A DNA stretch of 64,000 nucleotides from Streptomyces sp. WAC08241 (GTDB lineage Bacteria > Actinomycetota > Actinomycetes > Streptomycetales > Streptomycetaceae). Each line of letters starts with the position of its first letter. Position 1 is the first letter of the stretch. The position numbers were made by a program, and so were the translations under genes. The stretch is taken from positions 1,736,001-1,800,000 of the forward strand of contig CP042279.1 in assembly GCA_007858575.1 (NCBI GenBank). Reading direction: 5' to 3'. The notes beneath the pieces were generated by a model. It had not been told where the DNA came from. It did no database searches and saw nothing but the letters and a program-made list of their open reading frames with translations. Positions 41,155 to 57,843 of the stretch are shown here, in pieces.

Positions 41155-42543
41155 TCACCCCTCCCACGGCACCCGGTCGTACGGGAAGGAGTCCGGGCGC
41201 CGCTGGTCGAGCGAGCGCGGTGCGGCCGGTTCGATCACCGGATCGGCCCTCCACCCGCAGCAGCCACCCGGCCAGCGCCTCCCGCAGTCCGTCGGCCACC
41301 TCCCGGTGCGAGACGAGTCCCACCAGGTTCTCCAGTTCGTACGGGTCGGAGGCCAGGTCGTACAGCTCGGTCTCCCGGTAGCGGCCGGCCGCCGGCTCGC
41401 GCCAGGCGTCGGTCCCGGGCGGCGCCGACACCACGTACTTCCACCGCTCGGTCCGCACCGCCCGGCCGACCTGGTCCTCGCTGATCTGGACGAAGACCGA
41501 CTCGGGGCGGCCCGGATCCGTCCCGCCGCCCACCAGCGGCAGCAGCGACCGGCCCTGCACCCCTCGGGCACGTCGAGGCCCACCGCCTCGACCAGCGTCG
41601 GCATCAGGTCGGCCGTGGACACCGGCCGCCGGACTAGGCCGCCGCCCCGGAAGCCGGGGCCGGTCAGCGCCCACGGCACCCGCACCGAGGAGTCGTGCGC
41701 CGACCGCTTGTACTCCGAGTTCCGCGTACGGAAGTGGGAGCCGTGGTCGGCGGTCCAGGCGAGGACCGTGTCGTCCTCGATGCCCAGGGAGCGCAGCGCG
41801 TCCCGGAGCCGGCCCACGCCCTCGTCCACCCGCTTGACCTGTCCCAGATAGCCGCCGAGGTGCCGGTGCGCGCCGCCGTGCGGGGCACCGGGGCTCAGCG
41901 CGGCGAGGTCGGGCGGCAGCCAGCGGCCTTCGTACCGCTTCCCGGTACCCGGCGGGGCCGGGTAGTCGTCCGTCGGGTTCTGGTGGTGCGGTTCGAGCAG
42001 CGAGAGGAAGAGCAGGAACGGCCGGTCGTGGTGGTCGGCGACGAACCGGATCGCCGCGTCGACGAGGGCGTCCGAGCGGTAGCCCGGCAGCCGGACCGGC
42101 TCGCCCTCCTCGTCGTGGACCACCGTGCGGTACGCGTCCGAGGTGAACTCCAGCCGGTCCGAGGCCAGCCAGTGCGCGTAGCCGCCCCGGCGCCCGGGCG
42201 GCACGGGGCCGTCCGGGTTCTCCTCGCCGGCCAGGTGCCACTTGCCGATGTAACCGGTCGCGTACCCCGCCGCGCCGAGGACCGAGGCGAGGGTGGGGAC
42301 GTCCTCCGGCAGCGGGAGGCCGTTGCGGAAGACCCCGGTGGAGGTCGGCCAGCGGCCGGTCTGCAACGCCGAACGGGCGGGCGCGCAGACCGGGTTGAGT
42401 GATCGCCCGCTCGACCAGCGTGCCCTCGCGGGCCAGCCGGTCGAACTCGGGGGTCACCCCGCCGGATTGCCGTGGACGCCCGTGGTGTCCCACCGCTGCT
42501 GGTCGGTGAGGACCACGATCACCCGGGGCGGGACGTTCGTCAT
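41155..42543 (-). CDS. Sulfatase, formylglycine type, partner of TauD-like dioxygenase
   Basis: About 463 residues, no signal peptide, so cytoplasmic. ATG overlaps the dioxygenase stop (ATGA). Metal residues in [19 protein letters not shown]; the modification motif is [20 protein letters not shown], with C-A-P-A-R as FGly precursor. Further: [65 protein letters not shown]. It hydrolyses a sulfate ester, perhaps a choline-sulfatase-like or alkyl substrate. Breaks near 42455, 42400, 41560 and 41250; repair of the last gives the end ...RVPWEG. Needs the FGE encoded at 51250. Confidence 0.9.
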
Positions 42544-43575
42544 ACGGCGGCGGTCTCCGCCGCACCGACAGCCGCACCGACAGCCGCACCGGCCGCCGCG
42601 CCGTCCGCCGCACCGGCGGCCGTGTCCGCCGCCGCGTCCGTCGTCGAGGCGCCGGAGGCGATGCCGAACGCCGGGTCCGGCACGGACTCGGGCGCGAGCA
42701 GCACCGAGGAGCGCCCGTCCACGCCGACCGGCACGTCACCGTCGATGGTCACCCGGCGCAGCTTGCGGTCGTGGTCGTCGGAGTCGTCCACCCCGTAGTG
42801 CTGGGTGGCGCGGTTGTCCCAGATGGCGACGTCGCCGACCTGCCACTGCCAGCGGACGGTGTTCTCCGGGCGCTCCACGTGCCGCTGGAAGAGGGCGAAC
42901 AGGTCCCGCGAGTCGGCGCCGGTCAGACCGCTGATCCGCTGGACGAAGTTGCCGAGCAGCAGGGTCCGCTCGCCGGTCTCCGGGTGGACCCGCACGACCG
43001 GGTGCTCGGTCAGGAACTTCGTCGAGGCGAAGACCTCGCGGAAGCGCACGAGCTGCTCGGGCAGGGCGCCGGGGCGCAGGGCCGCGTAGTCGTAGTCGTT
43101 GGAGTGCACCGCCCGCAGCCCGTCGGCCAGCTTCCGCAGCGACTCGGGGAGGTTCTCGTACGCGGTCGCCGTGTTCGCCCACAGGGTGTTGCCGCCGTAC
43201 GGCGGGATGACGATCGCGCGGAGGATCGAGAAGGCGGGGTAGGCCGGGACGAACGTCACGTCACTGTGCCACTGGTTGGCCCGGCCGCCGTAGTCCGAGT
43301 CGATCGGGAAGGAGTAACGGCCGTCGGCGGAGGGGACGGTGGGGTGGGCGACGGGCGTGCCGAGGAGCCGGCCGAACGCCTCCTGCGCCTCCTCGTCCAG
43401 GTAGCCCTGGTCCCGGAAGAAGACGACCTTGTGCGCCAGGAGCGCGGCGCGGATCTCGGCGACGGTCTCGGCGGGCAGGTCGCCGCCGAGGCGGACGCCG
43501 GAGATGACGGCGCCGAGGCGGCCGCCGACCTCTGGACGGTGATCTTCCGGGCGTCGGGGAGGTGGTGGTCGACAT
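42540..43575 (-). CDS. TauD/AtsK-family alpha-ketoglutarate dioxygenase
   Basis: About 345 residues. Fe(II)/2-oxoglutarate enzyme that oxidatively cleaves sulfate esters or sulfonates. The iron triad is visible: QWHSDVTF (H-x-D) and NRATQHYGV (distal H), and R in [10 protein letters not shown] binds 2-oxoglutarate. [17 protein letters not shown] and [20 protein letters not shown] are typical of AtsK alkylsulfatases. The C-terminal ~40 residues are a low-complexity Ala/Gly/Thr tail of near-repeats, unusual for the family. One break near 43530. First gene of a two-gene operon with the sulfatase. Confidence 0.9.
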
Positions 43576-44152
43576 GACGTGTCCTTTCGGGAAGTGCGGT
43601 TCAGGAGCCCCGGAGCGGGTCCGGAGCAATTAATCTCGGAGAGGAAGTAATGAGGCGACGGGTGGGCCGGTGTGGACGTGCGCGTCCGTCGTGCGCCCGC
43701 GCCGTCCGGGCCCGTGGAGCGGGGTGAAGGGCCCGGAGCGGTGCGGATCGGGACGGTGCGGACCGGGTGCGGGAGGACGCTGTTCGGATGCGGCGGATCC
43801 GGAAGGACCGGACCACGGGAGCGGGACCGGCGGACCGGTCGCGCGAGGAGTCGCGAGGGTCAGGCGCCGCAGAGGGCGGGACAGGAGGAGGTCGCGAACA
43901 TGTCCCGGAGCCTGGCAGCGGCCGCCGCCGCGCGTCAAGCGCCCGTCCGCTCCCCGAACGGCCGCCCCGATGGTTGAATCGGCGCCTGCCCGGCGCCGCC
44001 GATCCGGCTTCCCCCACCCCGCCGAACCCCGCGTGACCAGCGATGATCCCCTTCCGGCAGGGGAACGCGTCCGGTACCGGACGGCGGAGGACGGCCGCGC
44101 CGGCGACCGCCCGGGATTTCACACCGCCGCAACAGTGACCAGAGAGGCACCC
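43576..44152. other. Central regulatory gap of the organosulfate island
   Basis: 577 bp between the divergent dioxygenase and ROK genes. It includes an AT-rich patch AATTAATCTC near 43627. Two mini-ORFs could be cysteine leader peptides: 43650-43727 plus (25 residues, two Cys, ribosome site AGAGGAAG) and 43860-43901 minus (13 residues, MFATSSCPALCGA, weak ribosome site). No full gene is supported. Confidence 0.35.
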
Positions 44153-45378
44153 ATGACCACGAGCACCCCGCACGGCTCCCGGATGGCCGGTGACGGCAGA
44201 CGCGAGACGAACGCCGCCACCGTCCTGCGGACCGTCCTCGACCACGGACCGGTCGCCCGCAGCGCCGTCGCCCGGCTCTCCGGCCTCAGCCCCGCCGCCG
44301 TCTCGCGCCAGGCCACCGACCTCACCCGGCTCGGCCTCCTGCGCGAGCTGCCCGAACTCGCCGGGGCGGGGAGTGGGGCGGCCCCAGATCCCCGTCGACC
44401 TGCACGTCGGCGCCACCGGAGGACCCGTCGTCGGCGGCGTCCACCTCGGCGTGCCCGGTTCGACCTTCGCCCTCGTCGACCTGCGCGGCCGGGTCCTGGC
44501 CCGCCACACCCACGCGCACGAGGGCATCGCGCCGGACGCCCTGCCCGGGGAACTCGCCCGCGCTGCGCGGCTTCCTCGACGAGCACGTCCGGAGCCGCCC
44601 CTGCTCGGGGTCGGCGCCGCGATCGGCGGCTGGGTGGACCCGGCCGAAGGGGTGGTGGTCCGGCACGACGCCCTCGGCTGGCGCCGCCGGCCGCTCGCCG
44701 CCGAACTCGCCCGCGGCCTCGGCGGACGGACCGTGCGCCTGGACAACCACGCCCGCTCCATCGCCCAGTCGGAGATCCTCTTCGGCCGGCCCGCCGCCCG
44801 CCGCAGCCTCGTGCACCTCTTCGTCGGCAACGTCGTCGACGCGGCCGTCGGACTCGCCGGGGTCGTGCACCAGGGGCCCGGGGCGGCGGCCGGCGACGTG
44901 GCGCACCTGCCCGTACCGGACTCCACGGCCCCTGCCCCTGCGGGCGTTCGGGCTGTCTGGAGGCGACCGCGTCGAACACCGCCCTCGGGCGCACCGCCGT
45001 GCGCCGCGGCATCGTGCCCGAGCCCGACACCTCCCTGGTGGTGGACGCGGCGGCGGCCGGGGACCGGCGCGCCGACCGGCTGCTGCGCGAACGGGCCCGC
45101 GCGGTCGGCCGCGCGGTGGCGCTCCTGCTCGACGTCCTCAACCCCGACCTGGTCGTCGTGACCGAGCAGGCCAGCGTCATCGAACCGGACTACCTGGAGG
45201 AGATCCGGGGGCCGCGATCGACCTCTCGCACGTCTGCGGAGACCCCGAACGCATCGTCAGTCCACATGCCGGACCGGCCACGCTGCCCGTCGCGGCGGGC
45301 ACGGTTCTGCTGAATCCCCTGTTCAGGAGGCCTCTTGAGACCTTCGAAGAGCTCCTGCCGACAGGGGCGGACGACTGA
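44153..45378 (+). CDS. ROK-family transcriptional regulator
   Basis: About 408 residues, RBS AGAGAGG. N-terminal winged HTH: TNAATVLRTVLDHGPVARSA then RLSGLSPAAVSRQATDLTRL. The ROK sugar-kinase-like domain follows with LLGVGAAIGGWVDPAEGVVV, RLDNHARSIAQSEILFG and the zinc motif CPCGRSGCLEA. Breaks near 44370, 44570, 44940 and 45212. It sits between the two arms of the sulfatase island and 16 bp from the palindrome at the next promoter, so it is the natural candidate regulator. ROK ligands are usually sugars, which would fit sulfated sugars. Confidence 0.88.
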
Positions 45379-45394
45379 TGTCGTCTCGGCATGC

Positions 45395-45412
45395 GGTCAA
45401 CGCCGGTTGACC
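45395..45412. promoter_or_regulatory. Palindrome overlapping the -35 box of the leader/ABC promoter
   Basis: GGTCAACGCCGGTTGACC has perfect 7-bp arms with a 4-nt spacer. Its right arm contains TTGACC, the likely -35. A repressor bound here would block the promoter. The ROK protein encoded just upstream is the first candidate. Confidence 0.65.
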
Positions 45413-45436
45413 ACTGCGCGAAGCCGCTGTCATATT
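45407..45436 (+). promoter_or_regulatory. Predicted housekeeping promoter for the leader peptide and ABC-FGE-sulfatase operon
   Basis: TTGACC (45407-45412) and CATATT (45431-45436) are separated by 18 bp. Expected initiation is about 45443, giving a very short leader before the leader-peptide ATG at 45455. The -10 match to TANNNT is only fair. Confidence 0.5.
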
Positions 45437-45454
45437 GCTCCCGTGAATCCGGAC

Positions 45455-45526
45455 ATGCGCCTCATCTCCCGCAGGCACGTCGACCTCTGTCGACAGGCCA
45501 GCGCGGTCTGTGCCGTCCGCGCCTGA
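45455..45526 (+). CDS. Cysteine leader peptide (sulfur attenuator)
   Basis: A 23-residue ORF whose core SRRHVDLCRQASAVC matches the actinobacterial leader-peptide family placed before sulfur-assimilation and sulfur-importer genes, in which RHVDLC and a second Cys are conserved. Ribosomes stalling at the Cys codons when Cys-tRNA is scarce are believed to change downstream RNA folding. It lies 357 nt before the ABC substrate-binding gene. Ribosome site is weak. This places the whole importer-FGE-sulfatase operon under sulfur control. Confidence 0.85.
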   Translation: MRLISRRHVDLCRQASAVCAVRA

Positions 45527-45882
45527 CCCCGGCGCCGGTCGTCGCACCGGCCGCACCGCTCCCGTACCGGCCCCGCAGGACCCGGGCCGCCCGCCGCACC
45601 CCCGTCACCGACGGCCGGCGAGCGCCTTGACGTTCCGCCCGTCGGCCGGACGCGCCACCACGGCTCCGTGACGCGAGGGGACCGGAGCCTCCACCGGCTC
45701 CGTGACCCCGGTCCCCGTCGCCGTGACCCTCCGCACCGCTCCCGCACCCGGTTCCGCGTGCTTCCGCGTCCCCGTACCCGGATCCGCGCACCCCTCTCCA
45801 CCTCCTCGTGGTTCCTTCCTTCCGCAGCGGAAGGAAATCCGCGCACCCCGCGGCCCTCCACCCCTTTCACAGGCAGGCATCG
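45527..45882 (+). promoter_or_regulatory. Long leader region, possible attenuator
   Basis: 356 nt between the leader peptide and the ABC lipoprotein gene with no protein-like frame. It contains many GC-rich complementary segments and a clear hairpin TTCCTTCCG/CGGAAGGAA (45816-45836, loop CAG) 47 nt before the ATG. The alternative structures needed for attenuation are plausible but not resolved by eye. Confidence 0.5.
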
Positions 45883-47481
45883 ATGACCGAGCTGTACCCC
45901 ACCACGCCCACCGCCCTCTCCCGGCGCACCACCCTGCGCGCCGCGGGCGGCGGCACCCTGCTGCTCGGGCTCGGCCTGGCGGGCTGCCGCTCGGCGGTCT
46001 CCGAGGCCGATTCCCCGGCGCCCGGCGCCAAGGCGGCCGCGGAGCCCCGGCGCGGAGGCACCCTCACCGTCGCCGTCAACTCGGACTTCACGCCCAGCCT
46101 GCTCTTCGCCCAGAGCGGCCAGTCGCTCCAGCAGCGGCTCGTCTACAACACCCTCGTCCGCTACGACGACCGGTTGAAGCCGCAGCCGGAGCTCGCCACC
46201 TCCTGGGACTACGCCGAGGACGGCCGCTCCATCACCCTGAAGCTGCGCACCGGCGTCACCTACCACGACGGCCGGCCCTTCACCGCCGACGACGTGATCT
46301 TCGCGGTGAAGAACCTCCAGAACCCGCTGCGCGCCGCCCAGTTGAGGGCCACCGCCGCCGCGATCACCGGCTTCGAGAAGCGCGGCGACCACGAACTCGT
46401 CCTCAAGCTCGCCCACCCGGTCAACAACCTGTTCGACCTCTTCGAGTTCATGATCATCACCGACCGGAACAGCGTCGAGGACGCCGTCGCCGGCAAGAAG
46501 CTCAACGGCACCGGCCCCTTCAAGCTCACCAAGTGGAGCCCCGGCACCGGCCTCGGCTTCACCCGCAACGAGAAGTACTGGCAGCCCGACCGCCCCTACC
46601 TGGACGCCGTCGAGTTCCGCGTCATCGCCCAGGCCGACGCCCTCCTCTCCTCCCCTGCGCACCGGCCAGACCCAGCTCTCCTACGGCGTCCCCGGCCGGA
46701 ACCTCGCCGTCCTCGCCGCCGACCCCGCGCTCGCCATCAGCGAGTACGCCACCGGCGGCGGCGCCCACTACCTCGGCGTCAACACCACCGTCGCCCCGCT
46801 GAACGACAAGACCGTCCGGCAGGCCCTCGCCTGGGGCGTCGACCGCGAGCGGATCCTCAAGCAGGTCCTCGGCGGCTACGGACTCGCCTCCGCCACCCCC
46901 TGGCCCAAGTCCTCGCCCGCCTTCAGCGAGGCCGGCCGCACCCACTACACCTACGACCCGGGCAAGGCCCGCGAGCTCCTCAAGTCCGCCGGCCACACCA
47001 AGCTCGACCTGCCGCTCCTCCACATCAACCTGCCCGGCGACACCGCGATAGCCGAGGCCATCCAGTACGACCTCAAGCAGATCGGCGTCCAGGTCACCCT
47101 CGAACCGACCGACCCGGCCACCGCCCAGAAGAACCTCATCTCCCAGTCCATGCCCGGCCTCTGGACCATGAGCCACGGCTTCGCCCAGGTCCAGCCCTCC
47201 ACCCTGGCCGTCAGCGCCTACCCCTTCAACGAGGCCAAGAACACGTCCAGGTTCCGCTCCGCCGCCTACACCAAGATCGTCCGCGAGGCCTGGACCACCC
47301 CGAGACCGGCGCCCGCGCCAACGCCCTGCGGCAGCAGATCACCGGCACCCTCCTCGACGAGGCGTTCATCATCGACCTCGTCATCCGGGGCTCCGTCCAG
47401 GTCGCCGCCAAGAAGCTGCACGGCGTCACCCTCAACAAGTTCGCCTACCTCAACCTCGACGACGCCTACCTGGCGGGCTGA
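45883..47481 (+). CDS. ABC transporter substrate-binding lipoprotein (dipeptide/nickel family)
   Basis: About 533 residues of the SBP_bac_5 family. Tat-style and lipoprotein signal: LSRRTTLRAAGGG, then LLLGLGLAGC with the lipobox cysteine. Family signatures: LVYNTLVRYDDRLKPQPELA, LKLRTGVTYHDGRPFTADDV, GTGPFKLTKWSPG, NEKYWQPDRPYLDAVEFRVI and VRQALAWGVDRERIL. Breaks near 46652 and 47303. First structural gene of the operon; it probably binds an organosulfate, sulfated peptide or a similar sulfur source. The ligand cannot be read from sequence. Confidence 0.92.
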   Translation: MTELYPTTPTALSRRTTLRAAGGGTLLLGLGLAGCRSAVSEADSPAPGAKAAAEPRRGGTLTVAVNSDFTPSLLFAQSGQSLQQRLVYNTLVRYDDRLKPQPELATSWDYAEDGRSITLKLRTGVTYHDGRPFTADDVIFAVKNLQNPLRAAQLRATAAAITGFEKRGDHELVLKLAHPVNNLFDLFEFMIITDRNSVEDAVAGKKLNGTGPFKLTKWSPGTGLGFTRNEKYWQPDRPYLDAVEFRVIAQADALLSSPAHRPDPALLRRPRPEPRRPRRRPRARHQRVRHRRRRPLPRRQHHRRPAERQDRPAGPRLGRRPRADPQAGPRRLRTRLRHPLAQVLARLQRGRPHPLHLRPGQGPRAPQVRRPHQARPAAPPHQPARRHRDSRGHPVRPQADRRPGHPRTDRPGHRPEEPHLPVHARPLDHEPRLRPGPALHPGRQRLPLQRGQEHVQVPLRRLHQDRPRGLDHPETGARANALRQQITGTLLDEAFIIDLVIRGSVQVAAKKLHGVTLNKFAYLNLDDAYLAG

Positions 47482-47482
47482 G

Positions 47483-48424
47483 ATGCGCGGCTATCTGCTG
47501 CGGAGGCTCCTCCGCGCTCCTCGTCCTCCTCGTCGCCTCCTTCGTCGCCTTCGCCGTCCTCCGGCTCGTCCCCGGAGACCCGGCGGCCGTCCTCGCCGGA
47601 CCCGACGCGAGCGCCGAGACCGAGGCCGCCATCCGGGCGCGCCTCGGCCTCGACGAACCCCTGCCCGCCCAGTACCTCCGCTGGCTCGGCGACCTCCTCA
47701 CCGGCGACCTCGGGCCGTCCTACGCGATCGGCGGACAGACCGCCGACCTCATCGGCGACGGCCTCGGAGCCACCGTCGAACTCACCCTCGCCGCCCTGCT
47801 GTTCGTCGTCGTCCTCGGCGCCGCCTTCGGCATCCTCGGCGCCACCTCCCGCAGCCGCTGGGTGCGCACCGCCGTACGGGTCGTCACCACCGGCGCCCTC
47901 GCCGTGCCGCCCTTCGTCACCGGCGTCCTCCTCGTCCTCCTCTTCTCCGTCCTCCTCGGCGTCCTGCCCCCGGGCGGCCGCGTCCCCTCCTCACCGCACC
48001 CGACCTGGGCGTCCAGTACCTGCTGCTGCCCGCCCTCTGCCTCGCCCTGCCCAGCGCCGCCGTCCTCGGCCGCTACCTCAAGGACGGCATCGAACGCGCC
48101 CTGGGCGAGGACTACGTCCGCACCGCCACCGCCGCCGGCATCGCCCCCGCCGGCTGCTGTGGCGCCACGCCCTGCCGAACGCGCTCCCGCCCGTCGTCAC
48201 CCTCCTCGGCATGCAGACCGGCAACCTCCTCGGCGGCGCCGTCCTCGTCGAGGCGATCTTCGCCTGGCCCGGCCTCGGCCAGCTCGCCGAACAGGCCCTG
48301 GTCCGCCGGGACTACCCCGTCGTCCAGGACCTCCTGCTCCTCCCTCGTCACCGTCTTCGTCCTCGTCCAACTGCTCACCGACCTCGTCCACGCCTGGCTC
48401 GACCCCCGGATCAGGTGGGAGTGA
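47483..48424 (+). CDS. ABC transporter permease (DppB-like)
   Basis: About 314 residues, starting 1 nt after the lipoprotein stop. N-terminus MRGYLLRRLL then LRLVPGDPAAVLAGPDASAE and RLGLDEPLPAQYLRWLGDLL are classic DppB/OppB. Several helices (VELTLAALLFVVVLGAAFGI). The cytoplasmic EAA loop is EDYVRTATAAGIAPA...RHALPNALPPVV. It ends VHAWLDPRIRWE, the typical family end. Breaks near 47512, 47990, 48157 and 48343. Confidence 0.92.
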   Translation: MRGYLLRRLLRAPRPPRRLLRRLRRPPARPRRPGGRPRRTRRERRDRGRHPGAPRPRRTPARPVPPLARRPPHRRPRAVLRDRRTDRRPHRRRPRSHRRTHPRRPAVRRRPRRRLRHPRRHLPQPLGAHRRTGRHHRRPRRAALRHRRPPRPPLLRPPRRPAPGRPRPLLTAPDLGVQYLLLPALCLALPSAAVLGRYLKDGIERALGEDYVRTATAAGIAPAGCCGATPCRTRSRPSSPSSACRPATSSAAPSSSRRSSPGPASASSPNRPWSAGTTPSSRTSCSSLVTVFVLVQLLTDLVHAWLDPRIRWE

Positions 48425-48429
48425 CCGCC

Positions 48430-49287
48430 ATGACCGCCCTCACGAAGGCCGCACTGCCCCTCGCGCGCCGGCCCCGCCACCCCTACCGGGCCGCCCTCGC
48501 CACCGCCCGCGGCCGCACCGGACTCGTCCTCGTCGGCCTGGTCGTCCTCGCCGGACTCCTCGCCCCGCTGCTCGCCGGCCACGGCCCCACCGACCAGAGC
48601 GGTCTGACGCTCGCCGGCCCCGGCACCCCGGGACACCCGCTCGGCACCGACGACCTCGGCCGCGACCTGCTCTCCCGGCTCCTCCACGGCATCCGCGCGG
48701 ACCTCGGCATCATCGCGATCGCCGTGCCGCTCGGCGCGCTCCTCGGCTGCCTCTTCGCCCTGGCCGCCGCCGCGCACCCGATCGCCGACACCGTCGTCCA
48801 GCGCGCCTTCGACCTGGTCCTGGCCTTCCCCGGGCTGATCCTGGCGCTCGCCATCACGGCGATCCTCGGCCCCGGCCGACTGCCCGTGATCATCGTGATC
48901 GCCCTGGCCGAGATCCCCGTCTTCGGACGGCTGCTGCGCACCGGGATCCTCGTCCAGCGCGGCCGGGAGTACGTGACGGCCGCCCGCGTCGGCGGCTCCT
49001 CCGGCGGCCGGATCCTCACCCGGCACGTCCTGCCCAACGCAGCCGACCCGCTCGTCGTCCAGATCGCCGTCTCCCTCACCGTCGCCGTCTTCATCGAAGG
49101 CGCCATGAGCTTCCTCGGCGTCGGCGTCCGGCCGCCCGAGCCCACCCTCGGCGCCGTCCTCAGCCAGTCCATGCCCTATCTGGCCCAGGCCCCGCACTTC
49201 GCCGCCGGACCGCTCGTGACCGTGACCGCGCTCGTCCTCGGCCTCTCCCCGACCGCCGAGGCACTGAACCGGGAGATACGCCGATGA
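48430..49287 (+). CDS. ABC transporter permease (DppC-like)
   Basis: Intact, 285 residues from ATG 48430; GTG 48421, overlapping the previous stop, is an alternative start. DppC signatures: [20 protein letters not shown] and [19 protein letters not shown]. The EAA loop is [20 protein letters not shown] then [13 protein letters not shown]. It pairs with the DppB-like permease. Its TGA overlaps the ATG of the ATPase gene. Confidence 0.93.
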
Positions 49288-51253
49288 CCACCCCTCCGCT
49301 CCTCGAAGTCCAGGGCCTGGACGTGGGGTTCACCACCCCGACGGCCGGCCCCTGCACGCCGTGCGGGACGTCTCCTTCACCCTCCGCAGGGGCGAGACGC
49401 TCGCCGTCGTCGGCGAGTCCGGCTCCGGGAAGTCCACCACCGCCCTGGCCCTGCTCCGGATGCTGCCCGGCACCGGCCGGATCACCGGCGGTTCCGTCCT
49501 CCTCGACGGGGAGGATCTCGCCACGGCCCCGGAGGACCGGCTGCGGGAGGTGCGCGGCGCACGGATCGGCATGATCTTCCAGGACCCGATGACGGCCCTG
49601 AACCCCGTCCTCAGCATCGGCCGCCACCTCGACGAGGTGCTCAGGGCGCACGGCGACCGGGACCGCACGACCGCGAACGGCACCGGCACCGCCACCAGTA
49701 CCGACAAGACGGCCGACGGCTCCGGGAACCCGGGCCGCTCCGAGAGCCCCGGCCGCCCCCGCCGCCCCGGAAACACCCGCCGCGACAAGGCCGCCCGCCG
49801 CGCCCGCGCCGTCGAACTCCTGCGCCTCGTCGGCATCCCCGACCCCGAGCGCCGCCTCGACGACCACCCGCACCAGTTCTCCGGCGGCCAGCGCCAGCGC
49901 GTCCTCATCGCCATGGCCCTCGCCGGCGAACCCGACGTCCTCCTCGCCGACGAGCCCACCACCGCCCTCGACGCCACCGTCCAGGACCAGATCCTCACCC
50001 TCCTCGGCGACCTCACCCGTACCACCGGCACCGCCCTCGTCCTCATCACCCACAACATGGGCGTGGTCGCCCGCGCCTGCGAACGCGTCCTCGTCATGTA
50101 CGGCGGCACCGTCGTCGAGGACGGCCCCACCGCCGAGGTCCTCACCCGCCCCCGGCACCCCTACACCGCCGGCCTCCTCGCCGCCGTGCCCCGGCTCTCC
50201 GCGCCCTCCGGCACCCGCCTCACCGGCATCCCCGGCACCCCGCCCGACCTCTCCCTGCCCCTCGCCGGCTGCGCGTTCGCCGCCCGCTGCGCCCTCGCCG
50301 AGGACCACTGCCACACGACCGCGCCCCCGCTCGTCGCCCTCACCGACACCGTCCGCGCGGCCTGCCTGCCCGCCGCCGAACGGTCCGAGCCGCTGCCGCC
50401 GCCCCCGCCGCCCGCCCGGATCGACCGGCCCGCGCCCGGCGCCGTCGTCCTGGCCGCCGAGGGGCTCCGCAAGACCTACCGGGGCCGGGGCCGCCGCACC
50501 TTCACCGCCCTGGACGACGTCTCCCTGACCCTCGCGGCGGGGGAGACCTCGGCATCGTCGGCGAGTCCGGCTCCGGCAAGTCCACCCTCGCCCGGGTCCT
50601 CGCCCACGCCCACCCCTCCGACGGGGCCGGATCTCCTCGACGGCCGGGACGTCACCCGCCCCGGCCGCGCCGAGCTGCACGCCGTGCGCCGCCGCGTCCA
50701 GATGGTCTTCCAGGACCCGTACGCCTCCCTCAACCCCCGCATGAGCGTCGGCGAGATCGTCGCCGAGCCGCTGCGGGCCTTCGGCCTCGGCGCCCCGGCC
50801 GAGCGGGCCGACCGCGTCGCGGAGCTCCTCCGCCTCGTCGGCCTCGACCCGGCCGCCGCCGACCGGCACCCGCGCTCCTTCTCCGGCGGCCAGCGCCAGC
50901 GCATCGGCATCGCCCGCGCGCTCGCCCCGGAGCCGTCCGTCCTCATCTGCGACGAACCCGTCTCGGCGCTCGACGTCTCCGTGCAGGCGCAGATCGTCGG
51001 CCTCCTCACCGACCTCCAGCGCGACCTCGGCCTCGCCCTCGTCTTCATCGCCCACGACCTGGCCGTGGTCCGCCAGGTCAGCCACCGCATCGCCGTGATG
51101 CACGAGGGCCGGATCGCGGAGACCGGCGCCGCCGACGAGCTGTGCGAGCGGCCCCGCGACCCCTACACCCGGGCGCTGCTCGCCGCCGCGCCCGAACCCG
51201 TACCGGTCACGGCCGCGCCCGTGCCCGCGGCGGCGGAGGCGGTGTCCGCGTGA
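49284..51253 (+). CDS. Fused double ABC ATPase (DppD-DppF type)
   Basis: About 656 residues with two nucleotide-binding domains. NBD1: [20 protein letters not shown] (Walker A), [35 protein letters not shown], then the oligopeptide tail [17 protein letters not shown]2: [69 protein letters not shown]1 has an odd ~40-residue Gly/Thr/Ser/Pro-rich insert before [13 protein letters not shown]. Breaks near 49350, 50550 and 50625 (two bases). Energises the importer. The end GTGA overlaps the FGE start. Confidence 0.92.
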
Positions 51254-52229
51254 GCGCCTGCTGCACCCCCGGCCGCACCTGCGCGGGCGGGAGCGGCCAC
51301 CGGCCTCCGCCGAACTGCTCCCCCTGCCGGCCGTACGGACCGCCCCGCCGGACCAGGCCCTGCTCGAACTGGCGGGCGGCACCTTCCGCATGGGCGACTC
51401 CTTCGGCGAGGGCTACCCCGCCGACCACGAGGGACCCGTGCGGGAGGTGACCGTCGCCCCTTCGCGATCGGCGCCACCGCCGTCACCAACGAGCGGTACG
51501 CGCGGTTCGTCGAGGCCACCGGACACCGCACCGACGCCGAACGCTTCGGCTCCTCCTTCGTCTTCCATCTCCTGCTCCACCCCGCCGCCGGGCGCCACGT
51601 CCTCGGCCGGGTCCCGCAGGCCCCTGGTGGCTCGGCGTCGAAGGGACCTCCTGGCACGCCCCGGAAGGGCCCGGCTCCGACCTCGAAGGCCGCGCCGACC
51701 ACCCGGTCACGCACGTCTCGTACGACGACGCCCTCGCCTACTGCGCCTGGGCGGGCGTCCGGCTGCCCACCGAGGCCGAATGGGAGTACGCGGCGCGCGG
51801 CGGCCTCGACGGCGCCCGCTACCCGTGGGGCGACGACCTCACCCCCGGCGGCCGGGAGAGGTGCAACACCTGGCTCGGGGACTTCCCGCACCGCTCCGAC
51901 CGGCCCGGCGGCCGCGTCGGCACCGTCCCCGTCACCGCCTACGAGCCCAACGGCCACGGCCTGTACAACACCTCCGGCAACGTCTGGGAGTGGTGCGCCG
52001 ACGCCTTCGCCCCCGCCGACGCCTTCGCCCCCGCCGACGCCTTCGGCCCGACCGGTCCCGCGCAGACGGCCGAGCGCGTCATCCGCGGCGGCTCGTACCT
52101 CTGCCACTCCTCCTACTGCAACCGCTACCGGGTCGCCGCCCGCTCCCACAACACGCCCGACTCCTCGACCGGCCACGGCGGCTTCCGCGTCGCCCGCTCG
52201 CTCCTCCCGGAAGGACCCGCCCCGCATGA
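51250..52229 (+). CDS. Formylglycine-generating enzyme (sulfatase-modifying factor)
   Basis: About 326 residues. GTG start overlaps the ATPase stop; N-terminus [11 protein letters not shown]. Copper-dependent oxidase that turns the Cys of C-x-P-x-R into formylglycine. Seen: [78 protein letters not shown], and the active-site pair in [20 protein letters not shown]. An 18-bp tandem repeat (ADAFAP units) enlarges the loop before the active site. Breaks near 51292, 51462, 51628 and 52215. It ends in ATGA overlap with its client arylsulfatase. Confidence 0.95.
52000..52035. repeat. In-frame 18-bp tandem repeat inside the FGE gene
   Basis: GACGCCTTCGCCCCCGCC occurs twice in tandem (52000-52017, 52018-52035), followed by a third part-copy. 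It encodes [17 protein letters not shown] in the loop between WEWC and the active-site GGSYLC segment. Confidence 0.85.
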
Positions 52230-54560
52230 CCACCGGAACCCCCGGCGAAGCCGCCCCGACCGCCCCCCGCCGCGACCCCTACGAGGGCTTCGCCGGGCGC
52301 GTCGGCCGCACCTTCGCCGAGTCCGAACCCGCCTGGCCCGCCCGTACCGCACCGCCCGCCAAGGCCCCCAACATCGTCGTCGTCCTCGTCGACGACATGG
52401 GCTTCAGCGACATCGGCCCCTTCGGCTCCGAGATCCCCACCCCCGTCCTGGACGCCCTCGCCGACGACGGCGTGCGACTCACCAACTACCACACCATGCC
52501 GCTCTGCTCGCCGGCCCGCGCCGCCCTGCTCACCGGCCTCAACCCGCACCGCGTCGGCTACGCCATGGTCGCCAACTCCGACCCCGGCTTCCCCGGCTAC
52601 GGCATGGAGATCGCCGACGACATCCCCACCCTCGCCGAACTCCTCCACGACGCCGGCTGCGCCACCTACGCCGTCGGCAAGTGGCACCTGGTCCGCGACT
52701 CCGCCTCCAACGCCGCCGACCACCGGGGCAACTGGCCGCTCCAGAAGGGCTTCGACCAGTACTACGGCGTCCTGGAGGGCCTCACCAGCCTCTTCCACCC
52801 GCACCAGCTCGTCCGGGACAACAGCCCGCTCGACATCGACGAGTTCCCCGACGACTACTACTACACCGACGACATCACCGACCAGGCGATCTCCATGGTG
52901 AAGTGCTGCGCGCCCACGACCCCGACAAGCCCTTCTTCCTCTACCTCGCGCACAACGCCGTCCACGGCCCCTCCAGGCCAGGGCCGAGGACATCGCCCGC
53001 CACCGGGGCCGCTACGACGAGGGCTGGGACGCCCTGCGCGAGCGGCGCTTCGCCGCCCAGCTCGCCGCCGGGCTCTTCCCGCCCGGCACCGAACTCCCCG
53101 CCCGCAACGGCGAGGCCGGACTCGACGTGCCCGCCTGGGACTCCCTCACCGAGGAGCAGCAGCGGCTCTACGCCCGCTACATGGAGGTGTACGCCGCCCT
53201 TGTCGACAACATCGACCAGAACCTCGGCCGACTCACCGCCACCCTCGACGCGCTCGGCGAACTCGACAACACCATCGTCGTCTTCACCTCCGACAACGGC
53301 GGCACCGGCGAGGGCGGCGCGGAGGGCACCCGCTCCTACTTCAGCCGCTTCGTCCACCACCCCCGCCTCCCCGGCGACTGGGACCCGGACGTCGACCGCG
53401 ACCCCGAGCTGATCGGCGGCCCCCGCAGCCTGGTCCACTACCCGCGCGGCTGGGGCATGGCCTCCAACACCCCTTCCGCCTCTACAAGGGCCACACCTAC
53501 GCCGGCGGCGTCCGCGTGCCCTTCGTCCTGTCCTGGCCCGAGGGCGTCCGCGACGGCCGGCTCGCCGCCGGGCTCCGCCCCCAGTACCAGTACGTCACCG
53601 ACATCGCCCCCACCCTCCTCGAACTCGCCGGCCTGGCCCGGCCGGAGAGCCGCCGGGGCGTCCCCTCCAGGAGCCGGACGGCGTCAGCTTCACCCCCGTC
53701 CTCGCCGACCCCGCCCACGACTCCACCCACCCCGAGCAGTACTGCGAGATGACCGGCAACCGCAGCCACTACCGCGACGGCCACAAGCTCGTCACCCTGC
53801 ACCGCCCGGGCACCCCTACGACGACTCCGAGTGGGCCCTCTACGACATCCGGACCGACCCCACCGAGATCCACGACCTCGCCGCCGAACGCCCCGAGCTC
53901 GTCAAGGAGCTGTCGGCCGCCTGGGAGGAGGCCGCCTGGCGCAACGGCGTCTTCCCGCTGCCCGACCACAGCGGCGCCCTCGCCCGCCGCAACCCCGCCG
54001 AACAGCGCCTGACCCGCCCCTCACCCTGCTGCCCGGCACCCCCGAGCTGGAGCGCTACCGCTCCTCCCGGCTCGTCGCCCTGCGCTCCTTCGAGATCGCC
54101 GTCGCCGTCGAGGAGACCGGCGACGGGGTCCTGGTCTCCCACGGCGACCAGGGCGGCGGCTACAGCCTGTACGTCGAGGACGGGCGCCTGGTCCTCGCGT
54201 ACAACGAGTACGGCACCCTCCACGAGACCGACGCCGGACCCCTCGGCCCCGGCCCGCACGAGATCCTCGTCTCCGCCACCGCCGAGGAGGGCCTGCGCTG
54301 GCGGTTCGCCGTCACCGTCGACGGCGAGCACCGGGCCGCGCCCGACAGCGTGCACCAACTGATCGGCATGGCCCCTTCCAGGGCATCAGCGTCGGCGTCG
54401 ACCGCAAGTCCCCGGTCTCCTGGCCGCTCCACGAACGCCACCGCTCCTTCCGCTTCACCGGCCGCCTCCGCTCCGTCACCTACCGGCCCGGCGCCCCGGC
54501 CCCGACGCGCCCGAGGCCGTCGCCGCCGCGCTGAAGGAGGCGGCCGCGGCCTTCGAATAG
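52226..54560 (+). CDS. Arylsulfatase (AtsA-like)
   Basis: About 778 residues, cytoplasmic (no signal peptide). Metal site [20 protein letters not shown], FGly motif [20 protein letters not shown] (C-S-P-A-R), [35 protein letters not shown] and [14 protein letters not shown]. The C-terminal ~170 residues form a beta domain ([20 protein letters not shown]) as in long AtsA-type arylsulfatases. Releases sulfate from aryl or other sulfate esters. Coupled by ATGA to FGE. Breaks near 52905, 52970, 53472, 53668, 53812, 54020 and 54375. A 13-bp hairpin ends the operon. Confidence 0.95.
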
Positions 54561-55616: not shown

Positions 55617-57843
55617 ATGCCCAGCCGCCGCCGTTTCTCGCCGGGTCCGCCGCCACGCTCGGCCTCGGCGCCCTGCCGGCGACCGGCACCGCCGAGGCGC
55701 GGGAGACCGGGACGGCGCAGGAGGCGTCCGGGGCGGCCGCCGTCCGGCCGCCGAACCTCGTCGTCGTCCTCGCCGACGACCTCGGGTACGGCGAACTCGG
55801 CGCGTACGGCCAGAAGCTCATCACCACCCCGCGCATCGACGCGCTCGCCGCCGACGGACTGCGGTTCACCGACGCCTACTCGACGGCCGCCGTCTGCGCC
55901 CCCTCCCGCTGCTCGCTCCTCACCGGCCTGCACACCGGACACGCGACCGTGCGCGCCAACCCGTCCGGCGCCCAGGGCTCCCTCACGGCCGCCGACACCA
56001 CCTTCGCCCAGGTGCTCCGGGCCCGCGGCTACCGCACCGGCCTCATCGGCAAGTGGGGCTTCGGGCCGGAGAGCGCCGGCCAGGACAGCCACCCCAACGC
56101 CCGGGGCTTCGAGGAGTTCCACGGCTACATCGACCACGGCCACGCGCACCAGTACTACCCGCAGTACCTCTGGCACGACGGCGCCAAGGAGACGATCCCC
56201 GCCAACGCGAACGGCGCCAGGGGCGCCTACGCGCCGGACCTGCTGCGGCGGCGGGCCCTGGACTTCATCGACCGGCACGCCGCCGAACCGTTCCTCCTGT
56301 TCCTCACCCCGACCGTGCCGCACGCCCCCAGCGACGTCCCCGGCACCGGCGCGTACGCCTCCCGCGACTGGAGCGAGGCGAACAAGGGCACGCCGCGCAG
56401 GTGAGCCTCTTCGACGCCCTCGTCGGCGACGTCGTCGACCGGCTGCGCGCCCTCGGCCTGGAGGACGACACGGTCCTCCTCGTCACCAGCGACAACGGCC
56501 CCCACGAGGAGGGCGGGGCCAACCCCGACCTGTTCGACTCCAACGGACCGCTGCGCGGCTACAAGCGCAACCTGTACGAGGGCGGGATCCGCGTCCCCTC
56601 CTCGCCTGGGGCCCCGGCCGGATCCGGCCCGGCACCAGCGACCGCCCGACCCCGCTCACCGACCTCCTGCCCACCCTCGCGGAACTCGGCGGCGCCCCCG
56701 CCCCCACCGACGTGGACGGCCTGTCGGCCGCGCCCCTCCTCACCGGCGGCACGGACCCGGCCCGCCACGACCACCTCTACTGGTACCGCGACGAGAAGGG
56801 CGTCACCTCCCGCGCCAACGCCCAGGACAAGCAGCGCGCCACCTGGCTCGCCGAGGCGCTCCGCAAGGACCGCTGGAAGGCGGTCCGCTTCGCCCCCGTC
56901 CGTGACCGGGCGCTCCCCGACGACCAGTGGCAGGTCGAGCTGTACGACCTGGCCGTCGACCCCGGCGAGACCTCCGACCTCGCGGCCCGCCACCCGGCCC
57001 GGGCCACGGAACTGGTCGCCCTGATGCGCTCCTCCTGGCGCGACCAGTACCCCCGGGCCCCGTTCGGGCGTCCCTGGCGGTGCCGTCCCTCGCCGTCCCC
57101 GGAAGGCCCTTCACCGCCACCGCCGTGCTCGCCAACGGCTCGGCGCGTCCCTGGACCTCGGCCGCCCTCGCCCTGAAGGTCCCGGCCGGCTGGACCGCGC
57201 GCGCCACCACGGCCACCGCGGCGACGCGGCTCGCCCCCGGCGCGCGGCTCACCGCCGCCTGGCAGGTCACTCCCGCCCCCGGGCGCCCCGGCGGGCACCC
57301 CTGGACGCTGACCGCCGAGGGCACCGCCACCGCCCCGGGCGGCCCGGTGCGGTACGCCGCCCCGGCACCGCCACCACCCCGCCCCCGGCGCCCACCGGGG
57401 ACGGCTACCTCCGACCTGCCCTGGATCAGCGCCGTCAACGGCTGGGGCCCGGTCGAGCGCGACGCCTCCAACGGCAGGAACGCCGCGGGCGACGGCACCC
57501 CGATCTCCTTCGGCGGCACCACATACGCCAAGGGCCTCGGCGTCCACGCGTACAGCGACGTCGCCTTCCACCTGGGCGGCGCCGCCGACCGCTTCACCAC
57601 CCTGGTCGGCATCGACGACTTCTCGGCCCGCCAGAGCTCCGTCGGCGCCACCCGCGCCACGGTGTACGGCGACGACCGCGTCCTGCACACCACCGGCGTC
57701 CTGACCGCCGCCACCGGCCCCGTCCCCTCGACCTCGACGTCCGGGGCGTCCGGGTCCTGCGCCTGGAGGTCACCGACGCCAACGACAAGACCTCCTTCGA
57801 CCACACCTCCTGGGCCCTGGCCCGGATCACGGTCCTCCGGTGA
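55617..57843 (+). CDS. Tat-exported sulfatase with C-terminal NPCBM-like domain
   Basis: About 742 residues, RBS AAGGAG. Tat signal MPSRRRFLAGSAATLGLGAL. Sulfatase domain: NLVVVLADDLGYGELGAYGQ, FGly motif AAVCAPSRCSLLTGLHTGHA (C-A-P-S-R), GLIGKWGFGPES, FLLFLTPTVPHAPSDVPGTG, LLVTSDNGPHEEGG, GYKRNLYEGGIRVP. Then an NEW3-like Ig domain (SLAVPGRPFTATAVLANGSA) and a C-terminal NPCBM-type galactose-binding fold (GVHAYSDVAFHLGGAADRFT). Probably cleaves sulfated polysaccharides outside the cell. Tat export of a folded protein suits prior modification by FGE. Breaks near 55637, 56393, 56600, 57065, 57370 and 57722. Confidence 0.93.

Follow-up and report, generated by a model that had tools for sequence, protein, structure and literature searches.

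A conserved short reading frame with a fixed UGU cysteine codon ahead of an importer-sulfatase operon in Streptomyces

Introduction

Does the short, cysteine-containing reading frame that precedes an importer and sulfatase operon of Streptomyces tie sulfur scavenging to the supply of cysteine and, if so, which of its features would do the sensing? The question was raised by a window of 64,000 nucleotides from Streptomyces sp. WAC08241 (contig CP042279.1, positions 1,736,001 to 1,800,000; all coordinates below are those of the window), for which a first-pass annotation had proposed a cysteine leader peptide at 45455–45526, attenuating sulfatase maturation and import through the translation of two Cys codons.

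Results and discussion

Reading frame, start codon and promoter of the leader

The 23-codon ORF of the first-pass annotation does exist as a frame with a stop: 45455–45526 on the + strand translates as MRLISRRHVDLCRQASAVCAVRA*. When scanned from the ATG at 45455, it matches the NF042934 profile (‘putative leader peptide’) with 35.1 bits (E 7e-9), above the cut-off of 27, which bears out the proposed membership in the actinobacterial sulfur leader-peptide family; in a six-frame scan of its own genome the leader scores 32.8 bits (E 7.1e-7). The core of the leader follows the pattern R-x-x-x-D-L-x-R, five residues and C, this cysteine lying four residues ahead of the stop. The start codon of the first-pass annotation fared less well. 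Its ATG (45455–45457, +) is not conserved, being ATG in only 26 of the 40 leaders compared and AAG, CCG, CTG, GCA, CGC or one unlisted codon in the others, and is rejected as very probably the wrong start. Four codons upstream, GTG is found in all 40 leaders (GTG or ATG was accepted there by the script), and in two of them, from Yinghuangia soli and Embleya, one extra residue before the core shifts the spacing between core and GTG by one codon. Judging from this alignment, the true start is very probably GTG 45443, which gives an ORF of 27 codons (45443–45526, +), VNPDMRLISRRHVDLCRQASAVCAVRA, in which the ATG is codon 5.

A promoter is predicted at 45407–45436 (+), with the −35 box TTGACC (45407–45412), a spacer of 18 nt and the −10 box CATATT (45431–45436). 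It is the sole promoter-like site in 45300–46000 in a scan of both strands that was confined to sigma-70-type promoters, the mean in 50 shuffles being 0.0. Among 15 aligned orthologous regions, TTGACC is present in all 15 and GTG is constant, the −10 box reads CATATT, CATTCT or CACTCT, and the distance from this box to GTG is 6 or 7 nt. Since six bases separate the −10 box from GTG 45443 in the window, the transcript should begin on GTG itself; thus, the leader transcript is predicted to be leaderless, with +1 on GTG 45443.

The operon and its neighbours

The leader stop ends 356 nt before the ATG at 45883 of the operon's first gene, so that the upstream placement given by the first-pass annotation stands, whereas its distance of 357 nt does not. 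This gene encodes a solute-binding lipoprotein (SBP; SBP_bac_5, Pfam PF00496; 45883–47481, +) and is frameshifted, the tblastn matches lying in frames 1, 2 and 1. According to tblastn, it is followed on the same strand by ABC permease 1 (47511–48421, frameshifted) and ABC permease 2 (48460–49284), both given as matched extents, by tandem ABC ATPases with oligo_HPY domains (49337–51253), by a formylglycine-generating enzyme (FGE; 51253–52209, frameshifted, found with the orthologue from locus L034, PF03781) and by a sulfatase (52268–54498, frameshifted). The importer, with its SBP lipoprotein, two permeases and tandem ATPases, is of the oligopeptide type. Upstream of the leader, tblastn places a frameshifted gene for a ROK-family regulator (44144–45336, +; orthologue at L034:8251-9501, PF00480) and, as a divergent neighbour, a TauD-family dioxygenase (42645–43532, −; orthologue PF02668). 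Locus L034, from S. cyaneofuscatus, holds an intact version of the operon in the same gene order, plus a second sulfatase. Such a second sulfatase directly follows FGE in L033, L034, L041, L044, L054 and L077 and has no match in the window. Sulfatase-like genes of low similarity (27% and 32%) also flank the operon at 41740–42528 (−) and 55745–56329 (+), respectively, which marks the region as a sulfatase cluster. Within 44144–54498, the ROK, SBP, permease 1, FGE and sulfatase genes are each split over several frames. The genome (7.28 Mb in two contigs) has a completeness of 55.8%, and together with the splits this low value suggests sequencing errors rather than pseudogenes.

Conservation of the leader upstream of the importer

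An SBP search of 150 same-genus genomes gave 16 matches at E<=1e-40. The leader is present upstream of SBP in all 15 orthologues with at least 68% identity (L012 included and the window's own counted), and pattern scans did not find it at the sixteenth match (L026, 39% identity). A scan of one genome per species yielded 54 loci, from which a partial locus (L075) and a distant one from Clostridiales (L080, 25% identity) were excluded; among the remaining 52, which share at least 8 contigs with the set of 15, the leader is found upstream of SBP in 39. These comprise 36 loci labelled Streptomyces and one each from Peterkaempfera (L055), Yinghuangia soli (L069) and Embleya (L070). At the other 13 loci (L056, L058–L063, L065, L067, L068, L073, L076 and L079), 8 of them labelled Kitasatospora, 4 Streptomyces sp. 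and 1 Yinghuangia, no leader was found with the first pattern, in a looser look or in a scan of the whole fetched loci. The two kinds of locus differ in arrangement. In 10 of the 13 leader-less loci, TauD and ROK are co-oriented with SBP and lead into it, whereas TauD is encoded on the opposite strand in all 34 leader-bearing loci that yielded a match to it. The leader thus accompanies a layout that makes SBP the first gene of its own transcript.

The proposal of a leader placed before a sulfur-scavenging operon is upheld by the 15 orthologues and the 39 wider loci, and the constant partner of the leader is the importer. The description of an importer–FGE–sulfatase operon holds for the layout in the window, but FGE is not constant: at a tblastn threshold of E<=1e-20 it was found in 21 of the 39 leader-bearing and none of the 13 leader-less loci, and the conserved sulfatase turned up in 31 leader-bearing loci and in all 13 leader-less ones, the counts for the leader-bearing set being lower bounds because L030, L041, L049 and L055 end early. 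FGE was not found in the other 18 leader-bearing loci, three of which end too early to tell, and four full-length leader-bearing loci (L027, L051, L064 and L066) yielded neither FGE nor the conserved sulfatase. With FGE so often absent, sulfatase maturation is not supported as the regulated target. Elsewhere in the family, inspection by eye of the N-termini encoded downstream of other leaders revealed cysteine-synthesis-, sulfite-reductase-, rhodanese-, monooxygenase- and sulfatase-like proteins; two of these leaders, L083 and L109, apparently precede sulfatase-like genes.

The ORF is very short, as one that had come by its family-like sequence by chance might be. That explanation has next to no probability left and is refuted by the retention of the ORF in 15/15 and 39/52 loci with synonymous change, to which the predicted promoter can be added. 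The leader ORF is real and under selection: the core residues are kept with free synonymous change, and the UGU codon of Cys23 is fixed, which supports selection on the peptide and its Cys codons.

One cysteine codon of the family is fixed as UGU

The leader of the window contains two cysteines, Cys16 at the DLC position (TGT, 45488–45490, +) and Cys23 (TGT, 45509–45511, +), each encoded by a single codon, with six residues between them and no run of adjacent Cys codons. The first-pass annotation had treated the two as joint sensors, and both are indeed TGT here, but they are not equivalent. Cys16 is Cys in most leaders of this operon (TGT in 36 and TGC in 1, according to the positional table), is replaced by Arg in three lineages (L023, L055 and L070) and varies among the other members of the family. 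Cys23, the proposed sensor, is invariant, and its codon is TGT in 39 of the 39 leaders of this operon that were read. The positional table has TGT at codon 23 in 38 of 40 rows, the other two being L069 and L070, in which the core is shifted by one codon. TGT is likewise the codon in 134 of 134 other NF042934 leaders, in which the position of the conserved C-terminal Cys was fixed by its spacing from the DL pair. When the first Cys position of these same 134 leaders is Cys, it is encoded by TGC in 60 cases and by TGT in 2; the pair of positions directly preceding the conserved Cys has TGC 39 times and TGT 10 times, one Cys codon between the two Cys positions is TGT, and Cys codons further downstream are TGC in 54 and TGT in 30 cases. 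TGT is therefore not confined to the conserved place, as it also occurs after it and between the two Cys positions. As background, TGT is normally the less common codon: long ORFs of the loci used in the first, looser count (see below) have 62 TGT and 312 TGC.

The sample of 134 is not random. It consists of top profile matches and 40 hand-picked rows of the class table; 9 leaders, some of them weak matches, belong to the genome of the window, and the other 125 were collected by searching genomes at the levels of genus, order and class (L002–L010 and L081–L205), the leader of the window (L001) being excluded. The sample spans 44 genera, counted by genus code, and 126 distinct peptides, and the final codon count scored all 134 loci and dropped none. 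The sequences are related and no probability is stated; because relatedness inflates the count, the contrast between the two Cys positions within the same ORFs is the stronger argument. An earlier, looser count gave TGT in 83 of 83 leaders, 12 of 95 loci being without a pattern match, and a second loose pattern matched 50 of 52 loci, with 48 TGT and 2 TGC, the latter (L172 and L189) reflecting a neighbouring second Cys that the pattern had caught. Selection by a protein profile cannot create a codon preference. In 128 unique stretches the R, D, L, R and C residues of the core are invariant, and third bases are mixed at each of the 19 remaining codon positions in the table, which include the codons for R, D, L and R. 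With residues fixed and third bases free, the peptide is kept as residues and one codon is kept as a base. In seven leaders (L140–L142, L144, L145, L147 and L149), the same core runs into Cys runs of mixed TGT and TGC codons, and the conserved position is TGT.

UGU is decoded through wobble by a single tRNA-Cys with the anticodon GCA. As UGU needs wobble decoding, the synonymous choice might itself set the sensitivity to Cys-tRNA. It is accordingly possible, although we hold it somewhat doubtful, that the family is a codon-specific, nascent-chain-assisted cysteine sensor, in which the core positions the ribosome and one Cys codon, UGU and never UGC, is measured. Such a position-specific UGU rule was not found in the open-licence literature searched.

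RNA between the leader and the operon

The untranslated gap between the leader and SBP (45527–45882, +; 356 nt) has a C content of 0.49 and a G content of 0.28 and is the proposed Rho-loading region. C exceeds G in the gaps of all 40 sequences of this operon, and the gap reaches about 500 nt among orthologous loci. Across the family, C minus G is positive over the 100 nt that follow the stop codon of the leader in 129 of 134 loci (mean 0.162), and its mean is −0.004 in the 100 nt upstream of the leader core. Between −120 and −20 before the SBP start, the mean is 0.204 in 39 of the 40 sequences, one gap being too short. The 243 other upstream regions taken from these loci average 0.072, with positive values in 168. 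The composition looked for in a Rho attenuator, a C-rich, G-poor untranslated stretch after the leader, is thus present.

Hairpins are another matter. A consensus scan found no intrinsic terminator on the + strand in 45300–46000, and terminator-like sites occur at about the level of shuffled sequences (8 versus 7 of the 134 family loci and 2 versus 1 of the 40 sequences of this operon, with one shuffle each), which leads us to reject a trp-type attenuator with an intrinsic terminator. The 458-nt RNA of leader and gap has no significant fold (z −1.34, 11 of 100 shuffles folding as well), and a strong fold of the 5′ region is rejected likewise. No attenuator hairpins were thus found in the leader–gap RNA by terminator scan or folding. 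Furthermore, no Rfam family exceeds its threshold in 44000–47000, the only sub-threshold match lying 1.4 kb upstream of the leader, and a known Rfam element is rejected as well.

The gap also contains a perfect 21-bp palindrome, TTCCTTCCGC-A-GCGGAAGGAA (45816–45836), 67 nt before the SBP start. Its motif, required at 13 or more of 18 positions (the best shuffles reach 12), is present in 36 of the 39 leader-bearing and 2 of the 13 leader-less loci (L056 and L058), and no further site within 2 mismatches was found in the genome itself. From its form and conservation, the palindrome is a candidate operator, perhaps of the ROK regulator encoded upstream, and its retention in the two leader-less loci implies that it serves something other than the leader. 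Closer to SBP lies the conserved ribosome-binding region CACAGGCAGG (45868–45877, +). By eye, CACAGGCAGG is more strongly conserved than an ordinary ribosome-binding site in the majority of leader-bearing loci from Streptomyces, and the leader-less loci inspected have GAAGGA- or GAGGA-like sites instead.

A proposed mechanism and its alternatives

Untranslated, C-rich and G-poor RNA behind a short ORF suits the loading of Rho and so favours Rho-dependent attenuation. We consider it somewhat probable that the leader ORF is a cysteine-responsive cis-regulatory element at which the ribosome gates attenuation of this kind. Transcription would start on GTG 45443, and the ribosome would initiate at the extreme 5′ end of the leaderless transcript, read the conserved core and arrive at the Cys23 codon, UGU, four residues short of the stop. 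With plentiful Cys-tRNA, it would pass this codon and terminate, exposing about 350 nt of naked C-rich, G-poor RNA, on which Rho could load and halt the polymerase ahead of the importer genes. Under a shortage of Cys-tRNA, UGU would be read slowly at Cys23, and also at Cys16, which would keep the ribosome at the leader's 3′ end, where it would block or delay Rho, and the importer–sulfatase operon would be made. We infer where transcription actually starts, that Rho takes part, which way the response runs and that cysteine is its signal, control of the operon by cysteine being suggested by the family and by the published mycobacterial relatives.

Several observations weigh against this reading. 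Thirteen of the 52 loci, four with a Streptomyces label among them, have a related operon and no leader, and the four full-length loci described above bear the leader with neither FGE nor the conserved sulfatase. The excess of C over G is common in other upstream regions too, and the leader–gap RNA is not unstructured, given its z-score of −1.34. A single invariant Cys codon is also little to build simple attenuation by starvation on; either the choice of UGU makes the sensor more responsive, or the ribosome is aided in stopping by the peptide core. If the latter were carried to its end, the leader would be a nascent-chain arrest sensor, in which the core in the exit tunnel and UGU in the A site arrest the ribosome and cysteine, free or on tRNA, sets the arrest; TnaC-like and SpeFL-like leaders are examples of such sensing. 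The invariance of R, D, L, R and C in 128 unique sequences, with third bases varying at R, D, L and R, fits this explanation, and a 13-residue core before a single sensor Cys exceeds what the counting of codons needs. We nevertheless deem arrest alone unlikely, as the invariance of residues was partly favoured by the profile search and pattern that selected the sequences, and as related leaders with Cys runs (L140, L144 and L145) resemble codon-counting attenuators.

Two further explanations, each of which we judge to be quite improbable, place control at the SBP gene itself. In translational attenuation, leader RNA would pair with CACAGGCAGG and a stalled ribosome would free it. By eye, GUCUGUG over the Cys23 codon can form seven pairs, one of them G-U, with CACAGGC, the CACAGGCAGG region is strongly conserved, and a passage of a 2026 paper calls the control exerted by the mycobacterial relatives translation attenuation (PMC13236596). 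However, pairing between leader and ribosome-binding region averaged 0.128 in the 21 of 40 sequences that were folded, not convincingly above the 0.078 of shuffled-gap controls and owed mostly to a few loci, and duplex scans of the 40 sequences often placed the best partner of the ribosome-binding region beyond the leader. Alternatively, the leader might be real but seldom govern the operon, the importer genes being driven from a second, ROK-controlled promoter near the palindrome. The conserved palindrome 67 nt ahead of SBP and its retention in the leader-less L056 and L058 speak for such a promoter, and gaps of up to about 500 nt would leave room for it to bypass the leader, which counts against Rho-dependent attenuation. 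By contrast, neither strand of 45300–46000 showed another site in the scan, which covered the sigma-70 type, and the leader has been kept before SBP in 36 Streptomyces-labelled loci as well as in Peterkaempfera, Yinghuangia soli and Embleya.

If cysteine does gate the operon, then organic-sulfate scavenging by Streptomyces, uptake and sulfatases alike, would be tied at the RNA level to the end product of sulfur assimilation. The leader belongs to an already catalogued family, and its link to a sulfatase importer is a natural extension; the surprising part is the position-specific UGU rule. The fixed codon turns what such leaders measure into a question of one base, UGU or UGC at Cys23 with the same peptide, and, if the codon-sensor reading is true, a single synonymous codon has been retained in no fewer than 44 genera within one class of G+C-rich bacteria.

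Comparison with known systems

Leader peptides with Cys codons have been described in several bacteria. None of the 8 leader peptides in the consulted sections of the S. lividans reannotation (PMC8079986) has the core of the NF042934 leaders. The uORFC-8-2 motif before cysS in Rhodobacterales is likewise a Cys-codon uORF but, in the account excerpted from PMC8632094, combines stems and an intrinsic terminator with Cys codons that are mostly UGC, from all of which the leader of the window differs; UGC thus dominates in an unrelated alphaproteobacterial Cys uORF (PMC8632094). Predicted Cys leader peptides were described in 2005 for cys operons of Mycobacterium and Propionibacterium and for cbs of Bifidobacterium, as set out in the relevant passages of PMC1262725. 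They resemble the present leader in that there is no conserved terminator and Rho was proposed, namely for the terminator-less mycobacterial cys leaders, in a prediction that the authors call rather weak (PMC1262725). In contrast to the leader of the window, they stand before biosynthesis genes and carry several Cys codons in a row close to the stop (PMC1262725).

Closer still are the mycobacterial sORFs Ms5788A and Ms4527A (NF042933 and NF042936), which share with the leader of the window a short, Cys-containing reading frame and a related core. They are leaderless and located ahead of sulfur genes, as described in parts of PMC4633059 and PMC9031893, and in M. smegmatis, as summarized in a section of the latter review, leaderless sORFs with Cys codons attenuate downstream genes according to cysteine availability (PMC9031893). 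However, these leaders are polycysteine, whereas that of the window has no run of Cys codons, and against the NF042933 and NF042936 profiles it reaches 18 and 17.6 bits, far below their cut-offs of 45.

The nearest known system is NF042934 itself, catalogued as cis_reg_atten. The profile matches 41 of 41 same-genus genomes, with 4–16 matches each (E<=0.01), 147 of 147 genomes of an order-level draw that were mostly of the same genus (E<=0.001) and 171 of 246 genomes of a class-level draw (E<=0.001), 151 of them over the cut-off, and none of 14 control genomes. With this family, the leader of the window has in common a score over the cut-off, the core, the C-terminal Cys and the placement before sulfur genes. 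It departs from the family at the first Cys position, which in the 134 other leaders is UGC, in two cases UGU, or does not encode Cys at all: unlike its relatives, the sulfatase-importer leader bears the UGU mark at both of its Cys codons.
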